From NCBI GenBank assembly GCA_010405405.1, contig MU004242.1, positions 853,769-917,768 of the forward strand: a stretch of DNA of 64,000 nucleotides. Direction: 5' to 3'. The DNA is from Microthyrium microscopicum (Eukaryota; Ascomycota; Dothideomycetes; Microthyriales; Microthyriaceae). Below, one piece after another: positions 29,634 to 60,329 of the stretch; position 1 is the stretch's first letter, and each line of letters begins with the position of its first letter. The position numbers were made by a program, and so were the translations under genes. The notes beneath the pieces are model-generated. The model was given only the letters and a program-made list of their open reading frames with translations. It was not told where the DNA came from and searched no databases.

Positions 29634-30389
29634 TCATACCTTGGTTACATTCTTCACGATCAATTGGGCCAACTCCTCCATCCCCCTGTAATCCGCCCGA
29701 CATATAGCAACACTATCATTATCCCGTTGCTTCTTCCATCGCTCGGTCCAAAACGGATCATTTCCACACCAAGGAACAGGATGCTGGGGAAGCTCGGCCT
29801 GCAAAAGCTCATCAGCGACAAGCAGCCTTTCCTTGGTCTTTCTCAGAAGGGTGAGAAAACTCGGCATTGTCGTAGCATCATCTGGCGCGGTCAATTTCGC
29901 CAGTTTAGTACAAGCATTCCAGAGTTGATCATAGCTAAAGGAAGTCTTCTTCAATAGCGTTTTGGTTTTCTGCATCTCAGGAGTATAGTCCCAGTATTTC
30001 TCACCCGGTGGGACAGGTGCATCGACGAGATTACCAAGTGATCTGGACTCGGACAGTAGCCTTCCCGACTCCAGTTCCCGGCTTCCCGGCTCGTCAGTGT
30101 GACAGACAGTTACATTGGATGGTGTGCTGCCACCAGGAAGTTCTATCTTGCCGCCATTGCGATAAACTTGGAGCATAATATGCCTCTTGACGTCTTTCAA
30201 ATTGCTAACGATCTCAGATTTTATAGAAGTTGCGAATTTGGAGTCGAATTCTATACTGGCAATCTCGATACATGTGCGGGATGTTTGGTTGTATAGGTCT
30301 TTTAAGACGTCAATTGTTTGATTTTGTGGTAGATCAGGTTCGTTTGGTGGTTCTTCGGAAGGTCGAGAAATAAAAGTGCCAGACTAAGG
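29634..30389 (-). pseudogene. host secreted-protein gene, 3' part, cut off by the 30-kb insertion
   Basis: An open frame of 748 bases runs from 30381 down to the stop at 29634, with no ATG at its upstream edge; it begins exactly at the border of the AT-rich element. Its missing start lies 30 kb away at 60329-60253, in matching phase, as described under that entry. The protein part is ~249 residues, hydrophilic and helix-rich, with cysteines in TCIEIAS, VTVC, NACTK and AICRAD. It is clearly related to the protein encoded at 61283-62388: both have C-x2-[IV]-A-x-I followed by S-I, and LW-x-AC-x-K later on. About 17 identities in 46 positions are seen by eye from LWNAC. The family is unknown. The frame is otherwise unbroken, so the insertion may be fairly recent or the 3' part still expressed; that is inference. 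Confidence 0.8.
30382..30389. repeat. target-site duplication, left copy
   Basis: GACTAAGG lies directly outside the left inverted repeat; the right copy at 60253-60260 is GACTGAGG. The one difference is TpG to TpA on this strand (CpA to TpA on the other), the RIP type of change, so the copies were probably identical at insertion. Confidence 0.8.
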
Positions 30390-30481
30390 TTATCTCAGCC
30401 AATCAGATCGCGCCAAGTCTCCGCTGGCTGCGACGTAGTTGCGTCTAAGGACAACTCGGAAAATTTTGTAGTAATCCGCTT
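30390..30481 (+). repeat. left terminal inverted repeat
   Basis: Starts TTATCTCAG, then shares with the reverse complement of 60158-60252 the blocks TCCGC, GGCT, CGTAG, GTCTAAGG and CAACT in the same order and nearly the same spacing, ending CCGCTT where the right repeat ends GCGCTT. By eye 29 of 37 positions match from 30420 to 30456. Unlike the interior, its outer part has normal base composition. Confidence 0.82.
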
Positions 30482-31024
30482 CGCAATTTTGTTATTTTTA
30501 TAAATAACTCAATACTATTATACTTATAGCCCCTTAGATTAAAATTAGGACCGTATAAACCTAGAGTTAGAAACTAGCTTTCTAATAAATCTATTTTTAT
30601 TTAGAACTAATACAAAACTATGAAATTAAACTAATCCTTCCTATATACCTAAAAATGACATACGTGTTTATATTTTAGTAAGCGCACTTTTAACTATTAA
30701 CTACCTAATAACTACTATAGTATATATAATTTTATATATATAGATATACTTAAAACTATTATCTATTTTAATCTAGTACGTTATTTTTAGGCTATTATTA
30801 TTAGTAGTAGTATAGACTCTATTTTTATTCTACTAACTATTATATTATTACCTACCTAGTTAATTATTTCCTTATTATAAGATATATATATAAACTATTA
30901 AAGGGTTGTAGTTAATAGACATTAAGAGTCTTTTGGTGCTATATATTAATTAAAGTCTATAAGACGTTAGTAAAATCTTTAATAAGCTTAATAAAGTTGC
31001 TACTTCTTATAAAATCTATATAAT

Positions 31025-31084
31025 GTTAGAAAATCTATAAAGATGTTAGAAGATCTATAAAGATATTAGAAGATCTATAAAGAT
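31025..31084. repeat. subterminal 20-bp tandem repeat, 3 copies (left)
   Basis: Three exact-length 20-base units of the form GTTAGAAGATCTATAAAGAT, about 640 bases inside the left end. In phase, the unit matches the 20-base unit near the right end (59004-59103) at 17 of 20 positions. In DNA transposons such subterminal repeats often bind transposase; here that is inference. Confidence 0.7.
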
Positions 31085-33769
31085 ATTTTGTTGCTCCTTC
31101 TATACCTTACTACTAAACTATTATACTTATTATATGTCTTAGGTCTAAACTATTTTACCTAAGTTAATAATACTATCTAAAAAGATACTAAGAATTTAAA
31201 AGGCGCCTCTAGATTTTAAAAAGAAGCTATTAGCTACGTAAAGGAATAATAAGGGACGATTTAGTAATTATCCTAATAACTAGGAGATATAGTACCCTCT
31301 ATTGCTATATAACCTAAACGAGATAGAGCTAGAAGAACTAGATAAACGTACTAAGAGAATGCCTAAGATAAAACTAGAAACTATTTAGAAGATAATTAAT
31401 ATCTTAACTTAGAATAAAAGTTATTTAGAGAAATAGCCTAGCGTATTAAGAAGTGCTTTAAAATGATTCTATCTAGACATTAAGCCTAAAGAAGCTTAGA
31501 TTTAAGCCCTTTATATATTAATCTATAGTAGTAAAGATATACTTTTAATAGCTAAAACTAGGTTTAGCAAAAGCCTAATCCTATATGCTTATAGTACTCT
31601 AACTAGTAAGATTATACTCTAGATTATTCCTCTTAATAAATTTAGAGAAGACTAATATAATAGCATTAAGAATATAGAAGGATATACTTCTTGTCTATTA
31701 ATAGAGAATTCTAAAGAGAAGATTTAATATTTTACTTATAAGATAAGGAGAGAAGACTTTAGTTATATTTTCTTATCGCTAGAGTTAGTATTATTCTTAG
31801 ACTTCTAAAAACTTCTAAAGGATGTAGAGTTTTAGCAAAGAATTAAGTATATTACTATTAATAAGTATTATTTCGTCTATTAGTGGCGTAACTTTTAAAT
31901 AAAGTTTACTATAATTAGTAAGCTTAGAGTAATACTACTATAGGATATTATTTAGTTTAGATATACTAGTACCTTAAGTTAACTAGCGTAGAAAATAATT
32001 CTTTAGCTTAGTAGCTTTTAATAATTAAGTTAATATTAGTAGTAAACTACTCTATTAAGAATAAGTATTAATTATCTAAATCTTTCTATTATTATATATT
32101 TTATTAAGAAAGATAAGCTTACTTCTTTTAATAATCTTTATAATATTCTATAGTACGCGTTTTAGTAAGTATATAAAATTACTACTTTAGTAGATAAAAA
32201 TTACTATAAAGTAACTACTAGCTAAGAAGAAGTTTATTACTAAGATGTATAGTCTAATAATAAGTATAGTACTAGTATAGATATAGTAAGTCTTAAATCT
32301 AATCTTTATTCTATAAAGGATAAGGATAATACTAATAGCAAACTTTTAGGTAAAGAAGATATTAATATTAATAGTTTTAGCTAATATCCTAAACTTAAGC
32401 ATAAGTATATATATAAACGCTCTAACTATAAGATTAAAGTTAGTAGTTTGTCTAAAATACTAAAAATAATTATTTTTATTAATAGTATCTTTAGTATCTA
32501 AACTATACTTATATACTTTTACTATTTATTAGTTATACTTACTTCTTATCTTCCTAATAGTTACCCTAAGAAGTACTTACATAATCTAAAGGCTAGAGCA
32601 TTTTACGTTAATAGGATTATTAAGAAGTATATATCTTAATTATCTAAGTATAATTAAAATTACTACTATACTACTTTCTATAAACCTAACTCTAAGATTT
32701 AAATTATAGTAGTAATGACTTATTTTAGGCTTAGCTATTATATTCCTAGTATTATGCTTATTATTATTTAGAAAATACTAATTAGTTATAATATACTAGA
32801 TTTTTAGTAGCACGCTAGTTATAGCGTGTAAGGTAAAAGTAACTATAGTATAGTTAAAATTTAGCTCTTATATTACTTATATAATAAATATATAAAAGAA
32901 CAACTTATTTAGGATATACTTAAGCCTAGTATAGTTATAATACGCTAGTAAAAAACTACTATACGTTATATACTTTTATTATATTATGCTATATAATAAT
33001 AATATTAGTCTTAGCTAGCTCTTTCCTAGTAAGCTTTATTGCATCCTTTATTATAAGTATAGATACTAAGTAATATATTAGATATTAGTAAAAATAGCCT
33101 TACTAATATAGAATAAGAATCTACTAAATTAGAATCTCTTATAGCTAGTTTATCTTAGGCTAGACCTTTAACTTAGAATATAGTAGAGAAGTAAAAAAAG
33201 TTAAAGAAAATAGAGTTTTTTTCTAAACCTAAGACTAAGTAATAAGCTAAAACTCTCTAAGAGTTTTATAATTTAGCAAATGCTAATTATATTTACGTTA
33301 TAATCTAGAAGTTTCTTAGTAAAGATTAAATGCTATCTTTACTAGCTTAGAATCTACTACTTTATTATAATAGATATAACCTAGACCTATTACTTCTAAA
33401 GATTACTCCTTATAAAGATAAATTAGCCTAATTAAAACCTCTAGCTCTTAATAGTTATAGCTAGTTTGCTTTAGAAAAGATTATAGCTTAGGTATAATAC
33501 TAAGTATAGAGATTATATCTACTCTCTACTATATCTAAGTATAGTATATTATCTTTTATAGTGCTAAGCTATTATACTTAATAGTAGTTAGCTTATATCT
33601 TTTCTAGTACTATTAAGCTTAGTAACTTACTATCCTTAATAGAATAGGATTAGTTAAAGAGTTAAGTAACTCTTCTTTATAACTAGAATAAATATAATAA
33701 CTATAGTATAGACTTACTTAAAAAGCTTAAGGCATTAGCTATTTTAGTACCTATAAGGTTTACTAAACT

Positions 33770-34390
33770 TAAGTAATAAAGGTAAGAATATAGAAAATAA
33801 AAAGAGGTAATAAGAGACTAAAGCGTATCTTAATTTACTAATTAATAAGTAATTAAGATTAACTTAGCTAAGAATACTAATAAGGCTATTAGATAGCGGT
33901 AAGAAGCTAACTATACTAATATTAAGGCTTATTTTAAAGCTATAGTATATAAATAGGACGAAAAATAATATTACTAGAGCAGCTTACTATCTTAGGCGAT
34001 AAGTATATTTAATACTACGCTAATATCTAGTTTAGCTTTAAGACTATTAGCCTCTTCTCTAGCTTCTAAGCCTTCTTATTACTATACGTTATAGGCTATA
34101 GTTAATACTATAATTCTTAAGGATTCTAAGCTAAGTAGTCTTATATCTTTACTTACTAGTAGAACTATATATTATAGTGCTCTTATAAAGTTGCCTATTA
34201 GCTTAACCTAGGCTAAAGCTAATAAATAAGTAAAAGATACTTTAAGTATACTACTTAGTTATAAAAGAGCTACCTAGTTACTAAGTATCGCTAGTATTAA
34301 ATAAGTAGAGAAGAGAGCTTAATAGAGAATTATTAGATTAAGCTATATCTAGAAAACGTATATTAAATATTTATTAATTCTTATAGAAAA
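33770..34390 (+). other. decayed coding-like remnant inside the element
   Basis: This stretch keeps a weak coding-like bias toward Lys, Arg, Ala and Ser codons in one plus-strand frame, unlike most of the block. No family could be assigned and it is not intact. Confidence 0.3.
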
Positions 34391-37300
34391 GGGGAGGTAT
34401 AATACTATTTTTCTTAACTAATTATTACTTTAGCTTAGTATATTTTTTAATACTAGTATGTAGAGTTCTATACTCCTAGTAGGCTACCTACTTCGTATTT
34501 AATATTAGTAAAATGCTACCTTCTAATTAGTTAATATTAACTAAGATCTTCTAAGATTAAATTAAATTATTCTATAAATTTAAATATATTATAATAATAT
34601 TAAACTTTTACTATCTAGGTATATTATTTTTAGTAGAGTTAGATAAGATAGTATATAGCTATAGGCTTACTAATAATAGAACTATATTTTATTATTATGC
34701 TATTAATAGAAGCTATATATACTAACGACTCTTACTATATTTTTAGCAAAAGTATAATTATAGAATAAGTTATATTATATACTTCTCTTATTAAAGCTTT
34801 TAATTAATATACTATCTACTAGTATAGCCGTCCCTTAGTATAATGCTATTACTCTATAGTATTTAAAGCGTATAAGAAGATATATTTACTTCTTTCTTAA
34901 AAGATCTTACTATAATATTAGTAGCCTCCTATTTATTATAGTATATTACTTTTAGTATTATATCTTACTACGTCTAGGTAAAGATTAGATTTCTATATAA
35001 AGTAACGATTTAAGATAGTAAGCTAAGCATAGTTACTACTAGCTTAACTTAATCCTTATAGTACGTAAGAGGAACTAACTACTACGTAGTAATATCGTTA
35101 ATATTAGTACCTATAGAAAGAAAGTTAGTAAGCTAAAAGGTAAGAAGTAAATATAGCCTACTATAGTACCTACTTAAACTAGTTAAGACTAAAGCCTAAT
35201 AGGTATTTAACTATATCTACTACTCTAGATCCTTTATATCTCTTTATTATACCTTTATTTTATATCTAAGCTTTATAAAGCTTTACCTTATAAAAATATT
35301 TAGTAAGTTTAATATTAATATTAACGTTATATACTATATTACTTATATACCTTTTTATATATAGTTTTAAGTTACTTTACTTACTTAGTAACCTCTAGTT
35401 AATACGTATATAAGGCTATTTAGGTCTATTTCTAAGTTTAACTCTTAGACTAATTCTTATACTTCTTTAGGCCTAATTATTATTTTTATAGTACTAATAT
35501 TAAATCTCTAGTTACTACCTTTAAGTTTATAGCGCTAAATTTAAAATTATATTTACTACTTCTTAGTAGCTTAGTAGCCTAGGAAATTAGGTCCTTATTT
35601 ATATATATTTAGTCTAATATTCTTTACTTATTTATTAAGCCTTATACTAAGAGAGTTCCTTAGGTTAATTTATATTTACTTAATAAGCCTTAAGTAGACT
35701 ATTATATTAAATACTGCCTATTCTAAGCCTATTATAGCTTATCTTTATAGGCTTATAAGTAGCTAGTAAGTAGTTAATATTTAATAGATAATACTACGTA
35801 AATTCTATTAACTTGCTTATAAATAGGTAATAATATAGTTACTAATCTTATAGGTTTAATCCTAGTCTTATAGTATAAGATTTTAGTTACTAAATCTAGA
35901 TAACTTTAGTTTATATAGTAGAGACTATCTTCTAAAATTTATATTACGTACTATTAGACTAAGTTAGACTTCTTCTATTCTAAGGCTTAGAAGTAGATTA
36001 CATAGTAGCTATTTATTCTACGCCTTATAGTAGTAGTATTATTATAGCTTTTAATAAGTTAATCTTATTCTATAATATCTAATTCTAAAATTAATAGTAA
36101 GCACTCTAGATTTTTATAACGCCTCTAGTACTTAAAAAATAGACCTATAGACCTCTTATATCTTTAAGAGATCTATCCTATTATAAGGCTATTATAATTA
36201 GGTAGCCTTATAATATTTATTATTTTATATTATTAACGCTCTTATAGTAAATAGGCTCCTATAAAAACATTCTAGTATATAATTAGCTAATATCTTTATA
36301 AAACTTTGTATAATTTACTAGAACTTTATACTTTAAGAAAGAATAATAAGATATTATCCTTAGGGATAGCTTTAATAGGAAATAATAGCCTAAACTAACT
36401 AGGCTTTATTTCTATAAGAGTACGAGTTAGATAGGAGTATTACTATAATAAAACTTTCCCTTACTCTATATTTTAAAGCTCTTTAACTATATATATATTA
36501 GCTTTATATACCCTTTATAAACGTTAGCTTTTTATTAGACTTTTAAAAATGCCTTAATATTATTAGCTTCTAGTATATTTAGTACGCTATAATATGCTAT
36601 ATATTTATACTAACCTATTTAAGTATAATTTTAAGAGTAAAAAAAAGATATATAGCCTAAAAGCTTACGTAGTAGTTATTAAGAAATCTAGAATAGTCTA
36701 TTAATAAGAGATACGTTTACGCTATAATAAGCGTATAGACCTTCTAAACGTTCTTTCTAATGCTAATAAGTATATTCCTTTACTTTTAAATTATAAATAA
36801 TAATATTAATAATATTATAGTAATAATAATTAAGAAGAATAAGTAGTAATTTAGGGCTTACTACCCTTAAATCTATCTACTTCTCTCTTCTCTCCTCTAT
36901 TATTACTATTACTACTATAGTAGTCTTCTTACGTAGTTACGCCTCTAGGCGTAATTTAATAACTATCGTTATCTAAGCCTAAGCTCTTAAATAAGTATAA
37001 ATACTTTACTTTATCTACTTTCTTATATTCTTCTAGGTAAGAGTTCTTAGCGTTATCTACTAATTTTAATAGCAATTTGCTTACCTTATAAGAAAAGGAT
37101 TTACTTGCTTTTAAAAAGGCTTTTCCTACTATAGAAAAGAAGGATTTATATATATAGAATAGAGATAAGGATAATATGCTAGTCTATAATGATAATTATA
37201 ATAATAATAATAGTTATAATTTATTTATACTTTCTTAGTCTCTTTCTTCTCTCTATTCTTAAGAGAGTTCTACTACTTCTTCTACTAGGACGCCTTAAAG

Positions 37301-40300
37301 CTTTTCTTCTTCCTCTTTCTCTTCTTCTTAGTTAGCTAGTATACTATATTTTAATAGAGTTTTTTCTTACGCTATAAACTTCTTTATTATGTATACTATT
37401 ATATTATTTCTTCTTAACCTACTATTTTTTATTACTCTAATTTCTTCTACTAGTATTTATAATAGTACTACCTATATAGACTTTAATAAGGAAGTTAAAG
37501 CTATAAAAGCCTTACTTATAGCTTATATAGTAGTTACTATTATAGAAGCCTTCTCTTTAAGCCTAGTTAGGTCTTTTAACTTAAAGGCTATAGCTATTAC
37601 TAAGGCCTATAGTTTAGTTAAGAAAATTCCTTAGTATTTTTATAAGAATAGTAATATTTTAAGTTACTCTCTAGTATTAGATTATTTCTAGTTAGTGACT
37701 ATTAACTAGTAGAAAGCTATATTACCTAACTAAAAGCGTAAGGTAACTTATATTAATTATATAGAAGAGATAAATACTAGTAAGACTCTAACTAGTAATA
37801 ATGCTTATAAGCATTACTAGCTTAGGGGTTATATATACTAAGTATATATTTTAGAGGTAAAAAATATACTTAAAAAACCTAGGTTCTAGTATTTATAATA
37901 CTATATAGTAAAGCTACTAAAGGATAGTTATAGTATAGTTAGACCTATAAATATACTAATTAAAAAGAAGAGGGCGTTAGGAAGATTACTAAAGGAACGT
38001 AGAGAATTTATAGTAATTTTACCTATTAGTAGAGGTTTAGCTAATATGTTAACTTAAGTAGTAATAAGTATAGTATAGTAAAGAGTAGTGTTTTAATGCA
38101 CTTTATATATAATAATAGTAACTACCTTAGTATATTTTGTTCTTTATAATTAATAGTTTAATCTAGCTTTATAGGTTTATAAGACTCTACTAAATAACTA
38201 TAGATATTTAGTATAGCTTAATATTATAAGATACGTCTTAATGTACTTTATCTTTATAAAGTAAGGTTTAACCTAGCTCTATAAGCTTAGTCTAGCTTCT
38301 TCTAAATAGCTATAAGTTTTAGGGCGGCCTTAATTATAAAACTCTATATCCTATATAATTATAATAAATAGAATTATTATAATTATATAAACTTAGTTCT
38401 TATTCTTATTATAATTATTTAACTATAACTATTAGTATTTAATATTATATATAGATTAATTTAGGAGGCAAAGTAGCTATACTTTATTATAGTTAGAAAA
38501 GTTATTATATACTTAAAGTTAATAGATATAATACAATTAAAGTACTAATATAAAGATTTAATAAAGTTAATATAAATTTAATAAGATAAAGTTAGAGAAA
38601 GGAGCTATAAATACTAATTAATTAAATACACGCTTTCTATTAGTTAATATTTTCTAATATGTCCTAAGAAAATCAACCTAGCATCCTTAACTTTAATTAT
38701 ATAGTCTCTACTCTTAATAGTTTAGCTTTAAAAGAGCTACTATTATATCTACTATATATCTCCTATAATACTAATACTACTATTCTTATTTACTAGACTT
38801 TAGCTAAATCTTTCTATTATAGAAATAGTACTTCTAATACTAATTTAGTCTATTTATTACTAGCTACTTATTACTATTAACTAGAAGACTACTAGATAGG
38901 CTTTACGTACTTACTATATATTAATATTAAATTATAAAATTAGATAAGTAAGTTACTTAATACTTGTTAAGTTATTACTTATATTAAATACTTATATTTA
39001 TTATCTTACCTTTCCTAAAACCCTTATTCTTATTATACCTTACTTTATATTAGTAAAAGGCAACTTCTTCTTATAAAGATTACTATTTATTAGAACTATA
39101 ATTTTCTTACCTTTTTCTATATATTTAGTTGCTATAATAGCTAATATTAATGCTCTAGCTATAATTACTAACTATTATTACTCTTAGCTATTCTAGTCTA
39201 CGTTTTTCTATTAATATTATAAGTTCCTAGCTTTTATATACTCTTTTAATATTACTAATATTTATACTTACTATTATTACTATAAAAAGATAACTATTTT
39301 TATAGATATTATTATTATTTATAGTATATTAATTATAAAGTTTCTTTAGAATATTATGCTAGTAAAGGCTATTACGTTATATAATAATAGTTATATAGTT
39401 ATTTACTACTTTAGCTTAGGTTATATTATAATTTATAGCTACGCTAATTACTTTTACTTATTCCTTACTAAGTAGATAGCTATTTAATTAGGTTATTATC
39501 TATAAAATCCTTTTACTTATCTATACCTCTATTACTTCTTTATACTACTCTTTAACTCTTTATTAGAGTTCCTTACTCTCTTTAAGAGTAAGAACTTCTT
39601 TATCTTTATTTATTTTAATTACTTATACTATTTACTATATACTATAATAGTATTTTATATTTAGCCTTATATTAAAAGACTATAAGTTTTACTATGCTAT
39701 ATCTATTTAAGAACTAACCTTATTTACTTAGTACTATTAATATAAACTCTTATTTGCTAACCTTTAAAGTAAGGATCTCTTTTCTTTTATAATCTACTAT
39801 TACTTAGTACTTTCTTCTACTACTTATATTAGGAGAAGTAATTCTATTTTAGTCTTTAGCTATTTATTAGCTTAGTAACGAGAAAGCTATAAGTTCTATT
39901 CTATAATTACGTTCTAATGACTTATACTTCTATTTAGCTCTATAGATATATACTTATGCGTATTTATACTTTTCTAGCTACCTAAACTGCCTAATAAATT
40001 AGTCTTTAGTCTTTATAATTTTAGAAGGAAAGCTATTAATATTATTAGTTTATAGTTATTATCTAATTACGCTACTTAGGTAATAGTATAGAACTTACTA
40101 AGAACTTTTTAATCTTTAAATCCTAATATAACTCTAAACTATAATAATAACTTTAAGTACTATACTCCTAATAACTAACTTATAATTCTAACTAAGTCTA
40201 TTATTAATACTATGCCTAGCTTCTACTTCTAGGTTTACTTCTATATATCCCTTATTATTTAGAGCATTTAGTAGTTCTATAAGCAAAACTTCTTCCCCTA

Positions 40301-43300
40301 TATAGTATAGTCTAAGTCTTAGACTAAAGCTAATTTTAATTAGCGTAGTTTTATTCCTATAGTACTTATATTATACTATTATGCTATCTTTATATTAGGC
40401 TAGAAGAGAAAGTATTAAGAGATACTTACGTATATATAATATTAAGCTAACGTTAATACGTAACGTTCTTTTAGTTAAATTAGCCTACTCTTTTAGCTCT
40501 CTACTATAATAGCTATTTATATTACGTTTAGATTAAAGGATAATAGCTTACTCCTTACTTAGTAATAAATAATAATATAAAATTTAAGTAGATAGTTAGT
40601 TTGCTAAGAACTAAATAATAGCTAGTATACTTAAATTAATTTCTACTACTTTTTAACCTATTATATTTTCTAAGTCTTAGTCTAGATTATAAATGTAAGT
40701 ATATATTCTTTAAATTATAAATTATTTTACTAACCTTTAGTTAGGACTTAGGCTTATAGCAACTCTAGATAGTTTCTTCTTATCTAAATAGTTTTCTTAT
40801 AGAAAGTAGTAACTCGTTTCGTATATATATAATTAAAAAGTCTAGTATCCTATACCTAATAGTAGACTTATTCTCTTAAATCTTTTAGTAGTTTAGTACT
40901 AAGATTACTAGTATTTTTATTAAAGCTATAGTTTTATATAGTTATAAGAAATACTATATAGCTAATTAAAAATATACCTAATGCTTATCCTATTACTTAG
41001 TAGTAGTTCCTTATTCTTAGTTCTAAATTAACTAGCTAGTAATAATAAGATACGTTAATCTCTCTAGATATTAAAATAGTTAATATGTATATTATATATA
41101 GGAGAATATATACTATAGTTTTAAAGACGTTATTTTTTATCTACTTACCTTAAGAGATAGAGAATAAATTTATAGTATTATACTACCTAGTTTAGTTCTA
41201 ATAATTAATATTAGCCTCTTACTACTAATATTTTATACTTCTTTCCTTAATATAGCTAATCTTCTAGCTATACTTAACCTATAAGGAAGCATATAGTTAT
41301 AATTATTAGACGTAATTATAGTTAGATAATATCTACTATTTCTAGCTACTATTAATATCTAGTAGCTCTAGATTTAGCTTTAGTTTAGTTACTAAGAGTA
41401 ATATAAGTAGAAGGTAATAACTAATAAGATCCTATATAGTAGTACTTTAAAGGCTTTGCTTACTTATTAGTTATAGCTAAGGAAGATAATACTAGCTTAT
41501 AAACTTAAATCTTTCTAACGTTATTCTTTATAATTATAATATTATTAAATATGCGTATTATTATCTAATATAATTATATAGTTTTAGACTTTAATAAAGC
41601 GCTAGATCTTATATAATAATATAAAGTAGATAGTAATAAGACTATATATAGTTTATATGTAAGAATATACTATAGAATATCTTTATCTAAAGAAAGCTAA
41701 GATTTTTATAATCTATAGCTACTAAACTATAAGAGATATTATTAACTTAATAGAGATAAATAATATATTACCTAGAGTAAAGAACGTGCTTTATAAATTA
41801 TACTCTTTAATTTTGCTATTTAGTTATTATAAATAGTTACTAAAAGGAATTTTAACTAATATAGCTCTTTTACTAAGAAGTACTACTTAAAAAGAGATTC
41901 TATACGATTATTGCTAATATTAGCTAGATAAGATATCTTCTATAGTATAGTTCTAAATAGTAAGTAATGCTAGATGTAGATTCTGTATTAGTATCCTTAA
42001 TATTTAAAGATTAATATAATATATAAACTATAGCTTCTATTAGGAGTTGTTGCTACTTTTATATTTCGCGTTATTACCTCTAATATTTAGTAGCTAATAA
42101 AGAATTTGACGATTAGGCTTTTAATAAGTATATTACTAGTAGCGTATTTTATAAAATTACTACTAATATAGAGATATTAATAAAATATTTAGCAAAGAGA
42201 CTTTAGATAGAAGTACTACTAGATATATATTTTATATAATTATTACTAACTTCTAAAAATTAATAGAATATTTAGTAAGTGGTCTAAAAGGGGCAATAAG
42301 CTAGCTAGTAATTAAACGCAGTTAGCATTAATATAAGAAATAATAGTTAACTTAATAGTTAATCTTATATATAGCTAATAGCTAGCTAGTAGTTAAGGGT
42401 GGCACCTATTATAGATTTATTATTTTGCTAATAGAAATATATAAATTAATACTATAATAAGCTTCTTACGTATAATATAGTAATACTAATTATCTAAATA
42501 ATAAAGCTCTTATTTTAGAGTATAAAGTATTTCTAGATTAGATATATAGTAGGTTAAAGAAATATATAGTAGGCTAGAGAGAAGAGATAGTTTATTTCTA
42601 TTTAATTAATTTATAAAAGGAGTTAGTAAAGTAATCTAGTCCTTTTATAGTAAGGATATTCTACGTCGTAATTATACTAATAGTAAATTAGATAAGGAGT
42701 TATTTATAATTAAAGGTATTTCTATAAGATAGTAGTTCTATCTAGTAGGCTTATCTATTATATTATAATAGCTAATAAGAATATAGTATATAAAATAAGT
42801 ATAAATATTTTATATTATATAAATACTAGTATAAGAATTAAGGAGTAGTAATTATTAGAATTTAGAAGGTTATAGTAAGAGATCTATACGCTACTAATAT
42901 TAATCTTACTAAATCTAGTTAGATAAATAAAGTTATATAATAATCTTTTAAGATCTTAGATAATATTATTACTTCTAAGCTAATTATTTACCTTAATTCT
43001 AATTATATAGTCTATATCTTATCTAGTTCCTAACCTATTAATTTTTAATATTATATTAACTTCTAATTCTTACTAATCTTTACCTCTATATCTTCTATCT
43101 TTTATCTTATAAATTACCTTTTTTATTTCTTACGCTAATATTTAAATTCTATATCCTTGCTAGTATTTTTACTATTCTCTTTACGCCTTTAAAATATCTA
43201 TCTAATCTAAGTACTACTACTCTTTATACTATCTTTTCCTTAGCTAATAGAAACTACTAACTAACCTATAATAACTATTATAAGTATATCTAATAAGCTA

Positions 43301-43339
43301 ACAACTATAATAGTATATTATTATAAAAATATAGACTCT

Positions 43340-43715
43340 ATATAGCTTTAAGAAGAATTATAAAGCATCTCCTACCCTCTAAAATAAGTATATTATGCTT
43401 TTTATTACCTATCTTACTAATAACGTAATACTCTTTATATTATAAAAACATCTATTAGATATTCTACCTTCTAAAATAAGTATATTATACTCCTTATTAC
43501 CTATTCTACTAATAAAGTAATACTCTTTACGTTATAAAAATATCTATTATATATTTTGCCCTCTAAAAAAAGTATATTATGCTACTTATTACTTATTCTA
43601 TTAATAAAGTAATATTCTTTATATCTATAAAATATCTACTATACCTCTTATCCTTTATAATAAGCGTATTATTCTCCTTATTACCTATTCTAATAATAAA
43701 ATAATATTCTTTATA
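43340..43715. repeat. 92-bp tandem array, ~4 copies
   Basis: The marker AGTATATTAT recurs at 43387, 43479, 43571 and, slightly changed, 43663, a spacing of exactly 92 each time. Units have diverged mainly by transitions. Confidence 0.75.
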
Positions 43716-46700
43716 CTAATAGTTATAGTACTTATAAAACTAAAACTATATAATCTAGAAAGGCTTAGATATTATTAGTGCTAGCTACCTAGAATGCTAT
43801 TAAATATTAACTATATAGTTAAACGTCTTTATTCCTTTAGGATATACCTATTATAATATAGTAGTTAGCAATTTACTAATAGAGTAAGTAAGATAGTAAT
43901 AATTATAAAATACGTCTATATATAGCAAAGAAGGACTAAACTAGCTAAGCACTTTAAAGCTCTAAAGCCTTAAAGGCTAAAGCTTTAGTAATTAAGTAAA
44001 GTAGTAACCTCTTATAATAAAGTAATTTTAAGCTTAATAGTAGAAACCTATATTTATAGTTTATTTAATTTCTTAATCTATTAACTTCTCTACTTCTTCT
44101 TCTTCTTTATATTTCTATATCTAAAGAATACTTTAAATAACTATAAGACATAATTTCTTCTACTAAAACTTATAATAATAGCTCTAAAGCGTATATCTAT
44201 AAGCTTTAATATTAAGTATACTATAACTATTTTAAGTATACTAAAAATACCTAGAAGCTTTACTAAAGACCTAATTATCCTAAACTTAGATAAATCCTTA
44301 TTACTAGAATCTACTTAATAAGCTACTCTAATTAAGTAGTCTATAAATCTAAATTAAGTATATTTAGTAAGCTATTAAACTACTCTAATCTAATTACTAT
44401 AGACATTTCTACTTTTTACTAATTCCTAATTTTATAGTAAAAAACTTCCTTATTAAGAAATATTAGTATAATTACTATAAACTCTTTAAAAGCCTAAATA
44501 GGCCTAGCTAGCTATAGTTACTCCTACTAGCAAAATAGTAAATTAACTTACTACGCTATTTATATAAAGCAATAGAAACTAGGCTTCTACTTTTATTAAA
44601 TAATTAGTTAAAAAGGATAAAAGCTATTATAATTATAATTATTTATTAATACTAGTTTATAGTAAAGAGGATACTATTACGATAGAAAGAGGTTTTAAAT
44701 ATAGATTTATTCCTCCTCTAAAAAGAGAAGAAGTATAGCTAACCCTAAATTATAAAGAATTATTAGTAACTATAGTAACTTACTACTATAATAATATAAT
44801 ACTTCTATATAGCGCCTATAAAGAAAATTCGTAGATTTAGTAAGAAAGATACTACATAGCTAGTAGCAAAGTAAAAATAGCTAAATAGCAAAAAGAAGTA
44901 TACTAAAAATGCTAAGTAAGTAACTTAGAACTTATTATAGAAGAGGCTACTTATAGTTAAGTATACGTACGTTAAAGTACCTAAGATAATATAATTAATA
45001 TAGGCTTTATAACTTTATTATGAAATAATATAAAAACTATAATATTACTTAAAAGTCTAATAACTTCTTTAACTTAAGTTATAGTTAAGAAGCTATTACT
45101 ATCCTCTAAATTATTTATAAGTAAGAAGTTAACGCTAAAAGTAGACCTTTAAGTTCTAGTTCTATAGTTCTTAGAGAAGTAATATATATTTAGTAATATA
45201 AAAGTATTTATCTTTAATAATTACGCTAAAACTACTAATATCTAAGTTATATAACTACTCTTCTACCTATTCTAAAAATAGATCCCTAATAATACTAATC
45301 TAATAATACTTTAAGTACTCCTTAAATATTAACTAGTACAAAGTCTATAATAATATAAACGTTCTACTCCTTAACTTATAAATATTCTAAAGATACTATC
45401 TTTACTATATACTATAATAGTATATTACTTTACTATAAGTTAAGTTAAATACTCTTATTAGCGTTACTCTAAAATTTAAAGTTTTAATCTATTCTAAATA
45501 AAGAATAGTAAAGAACTAATATTAGTATATACTACTTATATAATTATAAAAGTTAAGAATAAAAGCGTTCTATTTAAGGAAGCCTATATAAATTATGTTA
45601 TAGAAGGATATTATAAGACTTACTTATTTTATAAGGATAATAAGTAATTAGTGCCTAAGCTACGTCCTAATGTTGTAAAGACTAGAAAGGCTAAGGAAGA
45701 CTTTAGCAAATTTATATCTTAGTAAATTACTTACCTTATTACTAGTAAGAAAAAATAGAACTTATAGAAGACTAAATAATATAAGATAGCAATTAAAGGA
45801 GTAGAAACTTAAGATATAGCTATTTAAAAAGATTTAGTTTAACTAACAACTCTAATAATAATTTCCTATAGAATATATATTATTTACCTAAAGATAGATA
45901 AATAATAATTCTTATTTAATCTTTTAAGACTAAACTTAGAGAATTTCTATTATCTTTAATACTACGTTACTACTTACTAGTAGGCTTATATCCCTATAAG
46001 CTATTACTAAATTCTATAACTCTACTTATACTCTTAGAGTATAAGTAATAATATACTTCTTAACTATAAATAAGATAGGTAATCTACAACTAACTAACTA
46101 TACTATGCTTATAAATTTAGATTAGGTAATCCTTATTTTTAGCTTATCTTGTCTTAATCTATAGAGCCTAATTAGTATAGTAGCATATAAGCTATATTAA
46201 TAGATTATATCCTAGTTAAATATTCCTTATTTTAGCTAACTACATCTAGTAGCAATAGAGCTAAGCTATAGATTATATTTTAAATAATATAATAAACATA
46301 AGCTATCTAATAATATAGTAAAGTCTCTTACTAGCTTACTATTAGAATGTCTTAAACTACTACTAAGTAGTAATACTTTTAGAAGTTAACGTTATAAAGT
46401 TAAAAAGAGATTTCTAAAATCTCTTTCCTTTAGAATAGGATAATAGTAAGTTATATATCTAAATACTAACTAGTCTATATTAGTCTATAAGTTAAACTAT
46501 TTTATAGATCTACTTTAATTATAATTACTTAGAGCTCTATACTAAAAACTAGTAATACTATTACTCTTATTAGTACATTAATAGCTTGCTTTAGCTTAAT
46601 AAGTAACCTAATATTTAAAGATATATTCTAGAGCTTATTATTAACCTTACTTTATAATTATTATATCTATAACGAAAGAGAAGATAATTCTAAGTACTTG

Positions 46701-47399
46701 TATATTATTTATAGAATAAAACTAAATTATAAAGACGAAAGGTATAGTAATAAATTACAAAGCTAGTAGTATTTAAGTAAAGCTAGATTTAAGGTTCTAC
46801 TCTAAATAAGTAGACTAAGATACGCTTAACTACTTTTAGATAATATAAAACGTTCTTAAATAATATTTTAAGTTATATAAAGATATTAGTCTAATTAAAT
46901 AGCTCTTAGTAAGACTTAATTATTAGCATATAATACCTAATATCGTATTATAACTTTAAAGTCTTTTTAACTTTATACTAATATATCTAACTTTAATATT
47001 TATACTTTCTATTATAATATAATTTACCTTAATAACTATAATTTAAGACTAAATATAATTAGCGTTACTTATACTTATAGCTTATATATAACTTCCTTAT
47101 TATCTATATCATAATTTCTCTAGCTATTAGTATTTCTATATTCTTTATTTTATAAAGCTAGCTAATATTAATATTTTCTATGTTTAAAGCAATAATTAAT
47201 TTATATTATAATATATATTCCTACCTATTATAAGATAGTACTAATATTTTCTTAAAAGCTAAAGGTAAAGTTATAAAGCTAATTTTATTATATACTAGTA
47301 TACTAGATTTAAGTATATAGTATAATCCTTTCTAAAGCTTTATACGTACTTAAAAGTCTTATTATAATATTAGCTATTAAGTAGCATTCTTAACTTAGT

Positions 47400-48390
47400 A
47401 TAAGCATTCTCTTTCTTAAAGTCTACTCACTAGCTTTATTCTAAAAGTATAATTTATACGCTAAATACTATATATTCCTTCCTAAAGACTATTACTAAAA
47501 ATCTACTTACTAGCTTTATTCTAAGAATACAATTTACGTGCTAAATACTATACATCCCTCTTTAAAGACTATCGCTAAAAATCTACTCACTAGCTTCATT
47601 CTAAGAACACGATTTACGTACTAAATACTATACATTCCTCCCTAAAGACTATTACTAAAATCCGCTTGCTAGCTTTATTCCAAGAACACGATTCGCTACG
47701 CTAAATACTATTATATCCCTCCCTAAAGACTATCGCTAAAAATCTACTTGCTAGCTTTATTTTAAGAATATAATTCGCTACGCTAAACACTATTATATTC
47801 CTCTCTAAAGACTATCGCTAAAAATCTACTTACTAGCTTTATTCTAAGAATATAATTCGCTACGCTAAATACTATTATATCCCTTCCTAAAGACTGTCGC
47901 TAAAATTCACTTACTAGCTTCATTCTAAGAATATGATTTACTACGCTAAACACTATTATATTCCTCTCTAAAGACTATTGCTAAATATCTACTTACTAGC
48001 CTTCTTCTAATAGTATTATTTATATAATATAAGAATATATATTACTCTCTAAAGACTACTACTAAAAGTCTACTTACTAGCATTCTTCTAAAAGTATTAT
48101 TTATATAATATAAGAATATATCTTACTCCCTAAAGATTACTACTAAAAGTCTACTTACTAATATTCTTTTAATAGTATTATTTATATAATATAAGACTAT
48201 ATCTTACTCCTTAAAGACTACTACTAAAAGTCTACTTACTAGCCTTCTTTTAATAGTATTATTTATATAATATAAGAATATATCTTACTCTCTAAAGATT
48301 ACTACTAAAAGTCTACTTACTAGCGTTCTTCTAATAGTATTATTTATATAATATAAGACTATATCTTCTTCTTAAATACTACTACTAAAA
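47400..48390. repeat. 80-82-bp tandem array, ~12 copies
   Basis: The marker CTAAAGACT recurs every 80-82 bases (near 47483, 47563, 47643, 47724, 47805 and on to 48292). The first half (to about 47950) keeps more CpA and TpG than the surrounding block, so it is less damaged by RIP. In the second half the unit changes to one containing AGTATTATTTATATAATATAA. Confidence 0.8.
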
Positions 48391-48539
48391 CCTCCTTAAT
48401 GCCTAATAGTAAACTAATATATTAACTATAAATATATACTTCCTAGCGTAGTAAAGATTACCTTAAATAAAGCTCTTATTATAGGCTATTAACTAGTATT
48501 TTAGTAACTAAAGATACATATATTTCCTATTTCTTAGTA

Positions 48540-49080
48540 CTTACTATAAGTTATTATTAACTTATTAACTATTAAGAAATACTATATATTGTATACTATA
48601 ACTTATACTTATTTTTCCTTTAGACTACTACTAAATATCTTTCTACTCTTAAATATTAAGAGATACTATATATTATATATTATAACTTATACTTATTTTT
48701 TCTTTAAACTACTACTAAATATCTTTCTACTCTTAAATATTAAAAGATACTATATATTATATACTATAACTTATACTTATTTTTCCTTTAGACTACTACT
48801 AAATATCTTTTTATTCTTAAATATTAAGAGATATAGTATATTATCTATCTTTACTTATACTTATTTTTCTTAGTACTATTACTAAATATTTCCTTATTAT
48901 AGACTATTAAGAGATATAGTATACTACTTATTTTTACTTATGCTTATTTTTCTTAATACTACTACTAAATACTTTCTTATTATAAACTATTAAGAGATAT
49001 AGTATACTACTTATTCTTACTTATACTTATTTTTTATAGTACTACTACTAAATACTTCCTTATTATAGTCTATTAAGAAA
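48540..49080. repeat. 84-bp tandem array, ~6 copies
   Basis: The marker ACTTATACTTATTTTT recurs at 48601, 48685, 48769, 48853, 48936 and 49019. Because 84 is a multiple of three, a repetitive hydrophobic frame stays open across several units (48589-48873); I take it as a by-product of the repeat, not a gene. Confidence 0.78.
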
Positions 49081-51439: not shown

Positions 51440-52260
51440 GCTTTATAACGCGCTTTAACGTAATAGCTATCTATTAAGACTTTACTAATAACGTAATGTT
51501 TAATTACTAGAGCCTTAATAGATAGACCTAAAATAACTATAGCTATAGTGCTTTAACGTAATAGCTATTTATTAAGGCTTTACTAGCAACGTAACGTTTA
51601 ACTACTAGAGTAAGAATAATAGGCTTAGAATAAATTATAGCTATAGTACTTTAACGTAATAGCTATCTATTAAGGCTTTACTAATAACGTAACGTTTAAC
51701 TACTAGAGTAAAAGTAATAGGCTTAGAATAAACTATAGCTATAGTGCTTTAACGTAATAGCTATCTATTAAGGCTTTACTAGTAACGTAACGTTTAACTA
51801 CTAGAGTAAGAGTAATAAGCTTAGAATAAACTATAGCTATTATGCTAGCTACTTAGCTAATTATAATAGCTTTACTAGCAATATAGTAAATTAACTACTA
51901 GAGTGAGAGTAATAGGCTTAGAATAAACTATTACTATTATGCTAGCTACTTACCTAACTATAGTAGCTTTACTAGCTATGTAGCCTTCTACTACTAGGGC
52001 AAAAATAATAAGCTTAGAGTAAACTATTTCTAGCCTAGCTAAGTATACTAACTTTGTAAGCTTATAATCTTCTACTACTAAAGTAAGAATAATAAGCTTA
52101 GAGTAAACTATTCCTAGCCTAGCTAAGTATACTAACTTTATAAGCTTATAACCTTTTACTACTAGAGTAAGAATAATAAGCTTAGAGTAAACTATTCCTA
52201 GCCTAGCTAAGTATACTAACTTTATAAGCTATATAACGTTTAACTACTAAAGCTAGTATA
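51440..52260. repeat. 98-bp then 84-bp tandem array, ~8 copies
   Basis: CTTTAACGTAATAGCTAT begins units at 51453, 51551, 51649 and 51747 (spacing exactly 98). Further right the unit shortens to 84 (AGCTTAGAGTAAACT at 52011, 52095, 52179). The two unit types share the TTTAACTACTAGAGTAA part. Confidence 0.78.
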
Positions 52261-55200: not shown

Positions 55201-58200
55201 AGAACTAGTATTAATAGTTACTATAGCGCGCTAGCTATGCTATTTACCTACTCTATAATAAAGCTAATATATAGCTAATTGACCTAATAGAACTAGTATT
55301 AATAACTAGCGTAGCGCATTAGCTACGCTATCTACTTATAAATTAATAACTTTAATATCTAAGTAATTAATCTTACTAAGTTGGCGTTAATAGCTAGCGT
55401 AAGGTACAATATATAATACTATTAATATCTACTATGTAATTACCTAGTAGATTATATAGAAGAAGTAATAGAAGCACTTTAAAATAATCTAATAAATAGA
55501 GAGAGTAATTTAACTATGCTTATAATATTACTAGAGTAAATAAAGTAAATCTACCTATTATAAGTCTTAAAGGTCCTAAATATAGTAATAGGTATATACT
55601 TCTTAATAGAATTACTAAACTCTAAAAGCTTACTAGACTATAGAGAGCATAATATATTATTACTATTTATAGATATATACTACTTCTTTTTCCTCTTCCT
55701 TTTCCTTTAAAAACTCTCTAAAACGTTTATTACTACTTAATAGTAGTTATGACTACTACTAGACTAAATAGTTAATAAACCTTCTATTATACCCTATTAA
55801 TCTATACTAATATTAATATCCTTATTATATTAAATACTATAGCTAATACTAGAGTAGAAAGTTAAAAACTACCTCCTTAGAACTAGCCTACGCGTCTATT
55901 AATTTCCTTACTACCTTAGACGTATATATAATATATCTTACTATACTATAATCTTATTAGATAATATACTAACTTCTTTCTAAGATAAGGCTATATTAAA
56001 GCTAAAGGAGGCTACTACTCTATCTATAGTAAGAGAACCCTAATTACTAACTATTCTTAGATAAAACTTAAAATATTATAGAACTAATACGAGATAGAAT
56101 ATAATTATCTATTATTCTATATATTACCTTATGGGCTTATAGAGAATTCTATATTATAATAAGTAAGGCTAAGATGATAATTTAAACTATTAATATAGAT
56201 AATAGTAGTTTACTTAGTAGCGTAAAATTACCCTTATCTTTATACTTTAAGCTAACCTAGAATAAGCTTAAACTAATAAATAGATATAACTAATGCTTAA
56301 ATAAGAGATTATAGTAACTCTAAACTCCTCTATATTTAACGTATAACGAAGGTTAATATACTATTCTATATCTAAGACGCGCTTAGAGTTATCTATTAAA
56401 ATGATCCTATTATAAAAATAAGAAAGTATTTATTAGTAAGGCTAAATTAAATGGCATAATCCTATTAGCTAATATTATCTTATATTATCTAACATTTTCT
56501 AATATTAATTAGATTATATTATAATAGATAAGATCTTATTATATCCTACTATAATTTTAACCTTATATAAATTATGACTAAAGTAAAAACCTTAAATAAA
56601 TATATATTTATAAATTAACTTCTATAGCTTTAAATATACTAAGATTATCTCTATTAAATAATATATTATCTATAGTCTTCTCTATTATAACCTCTTCTCG
56701 TATATCTAAGTTATTACTATTAACGTCTTAGTTAAGAATGTTAATAGGCCTAGTTATAATATTATTCTCTATATAATCTTACCTAATAGTAGTTTTATAA
56801 TTAAAAGACTTAGCTTTAATATTAAGCTTATTAAGTCCTATTCTCTTTATATCTAGCAAGTTATAATATAAGCTATAGTTCTTAATTACTAATTAGGGTT
56901 AAGACTCTATAAGGCTATCTTTAATTAGATTTTAGTATAATAAGAATATATTATACTTTGTACTAGCGTTAGTATACTTATTACTAGCCTTATGTATAAA
57001 TATATGCGTAAATATGTTTTATAAATAATATATATACGTATTATAAAGGTAGACTTTATTAAATATTACCTTAACGTTATAAGTTAAGTTACTAAATAAC
57101 TTTATGTCTCTACTATAGTTACTATTTAAATACTCTAGTCCTAGATTTATAGGCTTAAAAAAGTTCTTATAGCCTTCCTAATTAACTAAGCTTAAGGCTA
57201 GGATAGACTTTTAAAGTTTAGAAGTATTTATATTAGATAAGTTTTACTTAAGCTATAGCATCTTATTCTTATAGTTATTCTAACTAGTACTATAAAAGTA
57301 AATAGTTAAGAAATTAACTAAGAGGCGTAAAAGTTTAATATTACTATATTAAAGGGTATATTATATAGTTAAGAGTAACTTAATCTCTTATAAGTACTAG
57401 TATATAGTTTAGAACTTAATATTATTACTCTTATCTAGGCGCTTATTCTATACTTTTCTTATAAAGGCTATTTAATAAATATCTTTAATAATCTTATTAA
57501 ACTATTCTATAGATAACTTATTAATATAGGATTTAAGTAGTTCTAAGATAGTAAAGAATAAATTATTAATATACTTAAGGTAGTAACCTTTCTAATCTAG
57601 ACTTTATAAAAATAACGCTAGGACTTTACTACTAAATCCTTATATTAAGATAAGAATAACCTAATAGGTTTAGGTATTATTATGCTTTTTATAACTTCGT
57701 CCCTATATACTAACGTTATATATAATAGAATATAGAGCTAGTATATTAACCTTAGAAGAATTCTAATAGGTTTAAATAATATAGAAGAAGTAGTTTATAT
57801 ATATATAGAACTATCTAGGAACTAAATAAAAGAACTTCCTTAAATCGTATGGTTATATTTTATTAAATACCTTAGCCTTAATAAAGTAGTTAATCTTTAT
57901 ACTTAACTAATTACTATAGGTAAGAAATAGCCTCTTTTTAAAGATCCTAGTACTTAGATTTAACGCTTGTAAACTATTAGTAGAGTTTTTATTGCTAACT
58001 GTACCTAAGATGCTAGATAACGATACTAGTATAGAATCTACTAGAGGAATACTACGTCTAAGATTAGGAGACGTACTTATATTACTAATAAACTTAATAT
58101 CTATACTGCCTTCTTTATTAAACGCCTCTCCTATTTTACTATTATTAAACTTACTTGCGTTATTATCTTTAATATTAATCTACTTATTGTTATAGTTATT

Positions 58201-59003
58201 ATTATAGTTATTATCTTTAAGGCCGCTACTAGATAGAGATATATTCTTAGACATATCTACATTAGATTCGTCCTAGCTAGAGATATAATAGATAAATAAA
58301 CTCTTATTATATATTTAGCTAGAAGACGAATAGGCTATACTAGATAAAGAGGCGTCTAGTCTAGAATTAGGTAGAGAGGATAGAATAGACGCTATAATAT
58401 TTAATAATAAGGCTACGTCTCTTATATTATTAATTAAAGGTTTTAGAAAGCTAAAATATCGTAAGAAGATTTTATTATATACTTAGTAAGTACTATTTAT
58501 TATTTCCTTATTCTCTATAATAGCGCTAAGCTAATTAAACTCTATTTTGTGTAGTATAAGTATATTAATGTCTAGTATACTAGGCTAGTATTTATTCTTT
58601 TTATGCTTTATAATCTAAGGTTTAATAATATTTAGAATGCTACGTTTTAAAGTATCTATAATAAGGTACTAGCTAATAGTTTTAATATATTTATCTCCTT
58701 AGCTGTTAGCTTTTACTAATAGGCCTTCCTATATTAATTTCTAGTTAAACTTCTTTATTAGATTGTATATATCTTATATTAGTCCTCCTAGAGGTAAGAA
58801 TAGATAGATCGTAATAATAGTAGTAGTAATAGCTACTATACTTATAGTATTACCTATTATCTTATTATACTTATAAGATATAAAGTTTATATTATTATAA
58901 TATAGGATAGCCTAATAGTTTAGTACGCATTATCTAATATTTCTCTATATATTAGGCGTTAGTAATATATAAGGTTTTTTAAGGTTATAAACTTAAGATT
59001 TTT

Positions 59004-59103
59004 AAAGATCTTATAAGATATATAAAGATCTTATAATATGTATAAAGATATTATAAGATATATAAAGATCTTATAATATATTTAAAGATTTTATAAGATC
59101 TTA
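59004..59103. repeat. subterminal 20-bp tandem repeat, 5 copies (right)
   Basis: Five units of exactly 20 bases of the form AAAGATCTTATAAGATATAT, starting at 59004, 59024, 59044, 59064 and 59084, about 1.15 kb inside the right end. Related to the 3-copy array at 31025-31084 in the same orientation. Confidence 0.75.
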
Positions 59104-60157
59104 TATTTAATATTAAGTATAGTATTATTATATACTAAGGCCTATCTTAAAACCTTCTTTATATATCTTAGTATAATCTTATAACTAGTATATATTCTAA
59201 GAGCTACTAGTAAGTTTATAATCTATCTTTTTATACTTAACCTAAGTAAATAGATACTAAGCGTTACTACTAGATAGTTATTTATTTCTCTACTCTGCTA
59301 ATAAAGAATAATTGCTATAATTATATATATAAGCTTCTATCCTAGCTTGTTATTTCGTTTATATGTCTTATAGTCCTAATTATATATAAGTTTATAAAAG
59401 AAGGCTATCTAAATAGGTATAGTATTTCTTATCTTCTTAATAGCTTTCTTAAAGTTAATGTTTATACTATCTACTTTACTACTAAAGTAGTTAAAACCTA
59501 TAAGTTTTATAAGGGCATAAAACTCTATTTATAGTCTAGAATTAGTATAATACTCTAGTATAATCCTATTACTTAATAACTATTCTATAATATCCTTTAA
59601 GAGCCTATAATAAATAGTAACGTTAGTATACTTATTATTATTAAGGATAATCTTCCTATAACTATCCTTTTAACTAACCTATAATAGAAGAAAGGATCTT
59701 ATTAATATCTTCTAATCTTAGATATATTTAAGTATTATAGTAAGCTTTTATTTAGCTAAGTTTAGGCTCTACTATAGTATTATTATTGCTGCTAGTTATA
59801 AACAACCTAATAGTTTAGCATTATTAAGCTTATATTAAATCCTACTTAAGGTATTTATAGGATCTATTATAGTAGTAATATTGCTAGAGATATATAAATA
59901 TATACTCTTTATTATTATAGAGATAAATCTACCTTTGCTACTATTATTATTAAAGAGAGATATACCTAGCCTATATAGAAATTAGGTTATCTCTATAAAA
60001 CTCTCCTCTATGACGCGTACTTCTAATAAGAGATATAATTTATAGAATTAATAGAGGAAAAGATAGTAATTATAATAATAGTAGAATTATTAAAAATAAT
60101 TATATATTAATAGTAAGGACATAATTGCAATAATATAGGCATTTACTAATAACTATA

Positions 60158-60252
60158 AAGCGCGTTACGCTAAAAAGATTTAAGTTGGCCTTAGACCCTC
60201 CTACGGAGGGAGCCCGCGGACGGGCAGGGTTAGGGTCTGAGAACTGAGATAA
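60158..60252 (-). repeat. right terminal inverted repeat
   Basis: Reverse complement matches 30390-30481 as described there. It contains its own short hairpin, CCCTCC-TAC-GGAGGG (60196-60210), absent from the left repeat. The outer ~80 bases have normal composition, and the drop into AT-rich sequence is at about 60170. Confidence 0.82.
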
Positions 60253-60260
60253 GACTGAGG
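60253..60260. repeat. target-site duplication, right copy
   Basis: GACTGAGG, directly outside the right inverted repeat; seven of eight bases match the left copy at 30382-30389. It lies inside the signal-peptide exon of the interrupted gene. Confidence 0.8.
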
Positions 60261-60329
60261 GGCTGGAGTTGCGAATGATGCCCAGGCAAGCATCATGGCC
60301 CAGGCAGTCAGTAAAGCAAAGAATTGCAT
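60253..60329 (-). pseudogene. host secreted-protein gene, 5' part with signal peptide
   Basis: From the ATG at 60329, the minus strand reads 25 codons plus two bases to the element border at 60253. The peptide is a textbook signal sequence (MQFFALLTAWAMMLAWASFA) followed by TPAPQ. Reading on into the element gives a stop within ~17 codons. The 3' part of the gene begins at 30381 on the same strand: counting one copy of the 8-base duplication, 77 + 748 = 825 bases, exactly 275 codons including the stop, so the two parts are in phase. A TATA-like stretch (ATATAATTATA, 60387-60397) lies about 60 bases upstream of the ATG. The host gene is thus split by the 30-kb insertion. Its product, a secreted protein of unknown family, is a paralogue of the neighbour at 61283. 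Confidence 0.8.

Follow-up and report, generated by a model that had tools for sequence, protein, structure and literature searches.

A stretch of 64,000 nucleotides from the ascomycete Microthyrium microscopicum (assembly GCA_010405405.1, contig MU004242.1, positions 853,769 to 917,768; hereafter the window) raises the question of what the AT-rich block between two inverted repeats is, how it came to separate the two parts of an open reading frame, and which of its genes could have moved it. We consider it probable that the block is a copy of a giant DNA transposon of ~30 kb with terminal inverted repeats (TIR), ruined by repeat-induced point mutation (RIP), and that a DUF6589 protein is its probable transposase, with a RecQ-like helicase as partner.

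Borders of the block and the interrupted reading frame

The initial annotation, made from the letters of the window alone, placed the element at positions 30382..60260. Size and borders were right, except that this span includes both 8-bp flanks, the element proper being 30390-60252 (29,863 bp). Imperfect inverted ends of ~95 bp are present at both borders and begin, read directly, with the same bases. Local alignment of the left and right 95-bp ends gave a score of 58, which shuffled right ends reached in 0 of 1,000 trials (maximum 34), and the imperfect repeats of ~92-95 bases described initially were thereby borne out. The duplication of eight bases directly outside them was likewise found, its two copies differing by one TG>TA change of the RIP type. 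The GC content per kb is 0.19-0.26 at positions 31001-60000 versus 0.42-0.54 in most of the flanks, in agreement with the AT-rich block proposed between the repeats. The borders and the interrupted frame are as follows.

30382..30389, no strand: target duplication, left copy, GACTAAGG (8-bp duplication in 15/15 tested insertions)
30390..30484, plus strand: left TIR, beginning TTATCTCAG, with inner block GTCTAAGGACAACT (nine left ends of long copies genome-wide)
60158..60252, minus strand: right TIR (end alignment; right ends recurring in the genome)
60253..60260, no strand: target duplication, right copy, GACTGAGG, differing from the left one by a single RIP-type transition
60253..60329, minus strand: interrupted frame, 5' part, with start codon and signal-peptide-like sequence
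29634..30381, minus strand: interrupted frame, 3' part, open in the matching phase only

The right piece of the frame (60329-60253, 77 nt) reads MQFFALLTAWAMMLAWASFATPAPQ. In the left piece (30381-29634, 748 nt) a single frame is open up to one terminal stop, the other two containing 18 and 12 stops, and the open one is exactly that demanded by the 77-nt piece. Counting one target copy, the two lengths sum to 825 nt, or 275 codons, and this arithmetic of the initial annotation is now joined by the phase check across the three frames. Of the secreted-protein gene that it saw split here, the interrupted in-phase frame stands, and secretion is indicated by the signal-peptide-like start only; the 748-nt piece matched no Pfam family above the cut-off. 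Repeats, duplication, reading phase and the recurrence of the ends elsewhere in the genome together support one mobile element inserted into an open frame in a single event, with an 8-bp target duplication. The best reading is that the element jumped into a gene, broke it and was then ruined by RIP.

Copies in the genome and their mutation by RIP

The M. microscopicum genome (36.9 Mb in 20 contigs) was read for further copies of the window element, which we refer to as family 1; the counts of its ends are lower bounds. At least nine left and at least eight right ends of the long type were found, and they pair into eight elements with both ends, the window element included. Six of these were covered from end to end (29,863 bp in the window, and 30,625, 29,585, 29,903, 29,804 and 30,168 bp; two of the six contain 6,242 and 5,504 N), and two further long copies on contig 2 span ~73.3 and ~79.3 kb, the DUF6589 gene of the latter being split by ~7 kb. 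Short elements with the same kind of ends, three in number and 719-723 bp long, lie on contigs 1, 8 and 10, and a genome search with one of them as query found no fourth.

All eight long copies with both ends are flanked by 8-bp duplications, of which six are perfect and those of the window copy and of the 79-kb copy contain a single transition each; the duplications of the three short elements are all perfect. These eleven duplications consist of 8 variable bases. When two related families described below are included, the duplication was found at 15/15 tested insertions, 11 times perfect and four times with one transition; the four mismatches are either TG>TA or CA>TA changes, such as RIP would produce when it extends past the element border. 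The search for further ends with their own 8-bp flanks, which had been proposed as a check, was thus positive at 8/8 long, 3/3 short and 4/4 related-family insertions. Inverted terminal repeats on dispersed copies (8 long, 3 short) and a target duplication of fixed length are two features of the TIR (class II) transposons; a third, a DDE/RNase-H-like transposase, is considered under DUF6589 below.

Beyond the imperfection of the ends, nothing speaks for a chance AT-rich block bounded by two unrelated repeats. The block is more than chance because the same paired ends recur at eight loci, each with its own 8-bp duplication, and six of these copies were read through and are largely collinear; coincidence is already refuted and retains a negligible probability.

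The copy on contig 6 (1228613-1258780, 30,168 bp) is intact. With short flanks included, its GC content is 0.473 versus 0.21-0.30 in the five other copies read. The window copy shows 7,572 differences from it in an alignment of 29,953 bases; C>T or G>A changes make up 7,304 of these differences, reverse transitions 69 and transversions 199. Relative to the intact copy, the cytosines changed in the window copy amount to 94% in CpA, 77% in CpG, 19% in CpC and 13% in CpT, and the RIP saturation suspected from the window alone is supported; among the five read copies 78-97% of the CpA sites are mutated. Transversions amount to just 0.4-0.7% in these RIP-hit copies, so that the copies look young; it was RIP and not age that turned the block AT-rich. 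We propose that copies spread and that RIP then saturated all of those read except that on contig 6. This copy may have come late, by an arrival or a jump more recent than the last RIP episode, or it may have escaped RIP because the ruined copies are now too divergent from it to trigger the process. The presence of one RIP-free copy alongside five saturated ones is informative on the RIP threshold in this species. The right end of the contig 6 copy appears twice around a gap of 10 N, the outer one carrying the matching duplication; this doubling is probably an assembly join.

A different AT-rich repeat (contig 2, 445000-446500) lies within both the 73-kb and the 79-kb copies in the same relative orientation. 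It recurs at seven other places of the genome with 90-94% identity and is possibly part of another giant element of ~43 kb.

Gene content and related families

In the contig 6 copy, a helicase frame of 1092 codons occupies element positions 754-4029 (Pfam DEAD, E 1.9e-12; Helicase_C, E 1.3e-7). It is identical to an NCBI protein of M. microscopicum and is related to RecQ helicases, WRN and RECQ5 being its best relatives in the PDB. Near the right end and on the opposite strand lies the DUF6589 gene (PF20231, E 3e-62), which corresponds to the NCBI-predicted 1062-aa protein P0001, whose model adds upstream exons. Between the two genes are a 415-aa frame, two sub-threshold DUF3716 frames and minisatellite arrays. 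Between 15.5 and 26.3 kb of the intact copy, open frames do not exceed 265 codons, and the longest lies in a minisatellite. The corresponding features of the window are the following.

31146..34412, plus strand (contig 13:884914-888180): RecQ-like helicase gene, RIP-broken, 102 stops
36813..38045, plus strand: accessory gene, RIP-broken (on contig 6 a frame of 415 codons, without a Pfam family)
40080..41299, plus strand: accessory frames, RIP-broken (on contig 6, one of them has a sub-threshold DUF3716 match)
44181..45839, plus strand: accessory gene, RIP-broken (554 codons in the contig 6 copy; DUF3716-like below cut-off, E 0.0016)
47426..49078, no strand: minisatellite arrays (on contig 6, units of 80-84 bp)
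51452..52237, no strand: second minisatellite region (on contig 6, units of 98 and 84 bp)
56611..58953, minus strand: main exon of the DUF6589 gene, RIP-broken, probable transposase
59133..59888, minus strand: upstream exon of the DUF6589 gene, RIP-broken (residues 34-285 of P0001)

The mid-element minisatellites thus have units of ~80-98 bp, and their array length varies between copies, as gapped alignments suggest.

The intact copy was scanned in six frames against Pfam (stops as X, E up to 0.1) over contig 6 1228400-1258399, a range that leaves the first ~381 element bases outside, with the helicase and DUF6589 as positive controls. Besides these two, only weak DUF3716 matches and one sub-threshold DUF4006 match were obtained, and none of the known transposases, recombinases, integrases or viral genes was found in the scanned range, which is nearly all of the copy. 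The DUF3716 matches are below the Pfam cut-off, the sole genome match above it lying outside the elements. The protein-primed DNA polymerase, integrase and capsid genes define Polintons/Mavericks. A size of 20-47 kb and inverted ends would be compatible with a Polinton-like element or an integrated virus, but the scan yielded no family of capsid, DNA polymerase, packaging or integrase proteins, and in two scans of viral contigs neither DUF6589 nor the helicase had a relative. Polintons and viruses were rejected on these grounds, and we regard such an origin as very improbable.

With the helicase and DUF6589 proteins as queries, related families were located in the same genome. Outside family 1 there are nine more DUF6589 loci. 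At eight of them a gene related to this helicase lies 14-44 kb away, and in each of these pairs the two genes face each other. Two weak helicase matches without stops (contig 2:2867 kb and contig 12:1075 kb) are probably ordinary cellular helicases. For families 2 and 3 the borders were taken as the points where the likeness of two copies stops, and the terminal motif TTAYCTYA and the duplications emerged afterwards:

contig 12, 149807-170268: family 2 insertion, 20.5 kb, duplication CCTATCCA/CCTATCTA
contig 2, 3257397-3277474: family 2 insertion, 20.1 kb, duplication GTCTAGAT twice
contig 1, 556340-603212: family 3 insertion, 46.9 kb, duplication AGTTCAAT twice
contig 2, 1370651-1405893: family 3 insertion, 35.2 kb, duplication ATTCTCAG/ATTCTTAG

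All four tested insertions (2/2 in each family) thus have the duplication, two perfect and two with one transition. The DNA of the three families can hardly be aligned, yet all have a helicase near the left end that faces a DUF6589 gene near the right end, and all share TTAYCTYA as terminal motif and duplications of 8 bp. At E 1e-5, DNA sampled from 8 loci of family 2 and 4 loci of family 3 gave no match to the intact family 1 copy. Compared with the RIP-saturated window copy, 0.3-0.4 kb of the family 2 DUF6589 gene aligns at 68-70% identity, and families 2 and 3 share one match of 145 bp among a few short cross-matches of 41-145 bp. The DUF6589 proteins recovered from the ruined frames of families 2 and 3 are 26-32% identical to that of family 1. 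The two accessory proteins used as queries had no match in families 2 and 3; the 415-aa one had short matches at two loci besides family 1. As the accessory proteins queried are otherwise confined to family 1, the helicase and DUF6589 look like the core.

The left ends also have an inner block, starting 54, 110 and 82 bp inside families 1, 2 and 3 (GTCTGAGGACAACT, GTCTAAGAGACTCT and GCCTAAGAGACACT, respectively), which resembles the inverted terminal motif. The block also occurs in the right end of family 1, at position 57. This block is possibly a transposase-binding site.

DUF6589 as candidate transposase and the place of the element among known transposons

An 8-bp stagger together with inverted ends implies a transposase. 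DUF6589 is the only strong candidate for it because all three families carry it and acidic residues are invariant at many of its positions. When it was aligned with eight relatives (45-51% identical over the searched region), D301 was present in 5/5 rows with a letter there, and D629, E888 and others in 9/9. We infer a catalytic role from these properties: the DUF6589 protein would cut at TTAYCTYA and insert with an 8-bp stagger, the RecQ-like helicase would probably aid the unwinding, resolution or repair of the long ends, or repair of the donor site, during movement, and the short ~720-bp copies would be non-autonomous derivatives mobilised in trans.

Several observations weigh against this assignment. 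A profile of DUF6589 matched no chain in the PDB. Unpaired loci occur outside family 1, one of them with DUF6589 (contig 7) and three with a RIP-damaged helicase (contig 4, contig 1:3716 kb and contig 14:4 kb); the ends were examined for four of the eight pairs there, and the co-occurrence of the two genes was seen in one genome only. Within family 1, two of the eight long copies, those of ~73 and ~79 kb on contig 2, are known from their ends and one inner 1.5-kb stretch of the 73-kb copy, and a ninth copy on contig 11 has a readable left end only, its right end being N.

The helicase, being the other core gene, or an accessory gene could instead be the engine, with DUF6589 as a regulator or DNA-binding partner and a replicative movement in place of cut-and-paste. 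The long region of the intact copy devoid of larger frames makes an unusual mechanism conceivable. However, we know of no RecQ-like helicase that makes an 8-bp staggered cut by itself. Helitrons have a Rep/helicase protein and lack inverted ends and target duplications (PMC4522978), and the element was excluded from them by its inverted ends and duplications. We therefore judge a movement driven by the helicase or an accessory gene improbable and retain DUF6589 as the probable transposase.

A less remote alternative is that DUF6589 is a diverged transposase from one of the named superfamilies that make 8-bp duplications, such as KDZ/Zisupton, hAT or Mutator, and the element a giant lineage of it. 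Zisupton elements have 8-bp duplications and inverted ends, and hAT duplications are usually of 8 bp, as stated in a portion of PMC12730594. In Cryptococcus, KDZ1 is ~11 kb long with 241-bp ends and 8-bp duplications, and KDZ2 and KDZ3 are 9-10 kb with duplications of 4-8 bp (PMC12810828, in part). The Microthyrium element shares the 8-bp duplication with them, but nine DUF6589 proteins matched no Pfam transposase family at E up to 10, HMMER filters dropping most matches above 0.1. A weak Gp37 match of one of the nine (E 0.15) was taken as chance. The KDZ transposase domain PF18758 was absent from the six-frame scan and had no match in a genome search in which no positive control registered. 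Nor did the scan reveal a hAT family or, among Mutator-like, P, Novosib and Merlin elements, any Pfam transposase, the coverage of each of these four groups by Pfam being unchecked. We consider a known superfamily unlikely, though clearly less so than the alternatives above.

Comparison with described systems shows likenesses to several, but no gene that defines KDZ, hAT, KolobokH or Starship elements was found. Fungal KDZ/Zisupton elements (Dileera, Cryptococcus KDZ1-3) resemble ours in their inverted ends, duplications and length (9-11 kb in Cryptococcus; PMC12810828, in part), whereas the Microthyrium elements are about two to five times longer and have a RecQ-like helicase gene, and neither a KDZ domain nor a TET/JBP family was found by the Pfam scan of the intact copy. 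KolobokH, the fungal Kolobok, is an inverted-repeat DNA transposon with a RecQ helicase (PMC9587614, in part), but its duplication is TTAA (4 bp) and its helicase lies downstream of the transposase domain, in contrast to the 8 variable bp and the separate, facing helicase seen here; Kolobok was rejected on the basis of the eleven family 1 duplications. Starships have in common with our element the giant size in filamentous ascomycetes, a gene near the edge and accessory genes. Their 5' edge is occupied by a tyrosine recombinase of the DUF3435 family (PMC12506042, in part), which was absent from the six-frame scan of the intact copy; a genome search with PF11917, in which no positive control registered, had no match either. 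Inverted ends and 8-bp duplications are present here, and Starships were rejected as well. A 9.5-kb, histone-H3-carrying hAT family of Dothideomycetes also has 8-bp duplications and RIP, but its ends are of ~20 bp and it has a hAT domain (both from a part of PMC6710886), neither of which was found in the Microthyrium element.

The initial annotation suggested that the element may be undescribed. As far as tested this is supported, since the Pfam scan of the intact copy found no known transposase and no paper in the open-access literature searched mentions DUF6589. Searches for DUF6589, DUF3716 and PF20231 found no relevant paper in the open-access literature, subscription journals being mostly outside it; as the search was mainly of open-access text and Repbase was outside its scope, the element may have an existing name. 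Whether it represents a superfamily of giant DNA transposons of eukaryotes that has not been described before, marked by a DUF6589 transposase facing a RecQ-like helicase, by TTAYCTYA termini and by 8-bp duplications, is in our opinion an evenly balanced matter. Such a superfamily would include at least three families here and perhaps, to go by relatives of the two proteins in data from other fungi and from metagenomes, members in many fungi, and some fungal "subtelomeric RecQ helicases" could be its remains. If true, this would give a function to DUF6589, now a Pfam family without one, might explain the dispersed, low-GC RecQ-like helicase genes of some fungi, and would place a second kind of giant DNA transposon, with inverted ends, beside the Starships in filamentous fungi. 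With ruined copies, a RIP-free copy and short derivatives in one genome, the minimal parts are directly testable.

The subtelomeric RecQ-like helicases of fungi such as M. graminicola likewise occur in multiple low-GC copies, and in the part of PMC4522978 concerned they are described as subtelomeric genes, not as transposon parts. In Microthyrium, some helicase-bearing copies were seen within ~4-63 kb of contig ends (for example contig 14, 4161, and the left end at contig 11, 34518), a position that recalls the subtelomeric RecQ helicases of other fungi.
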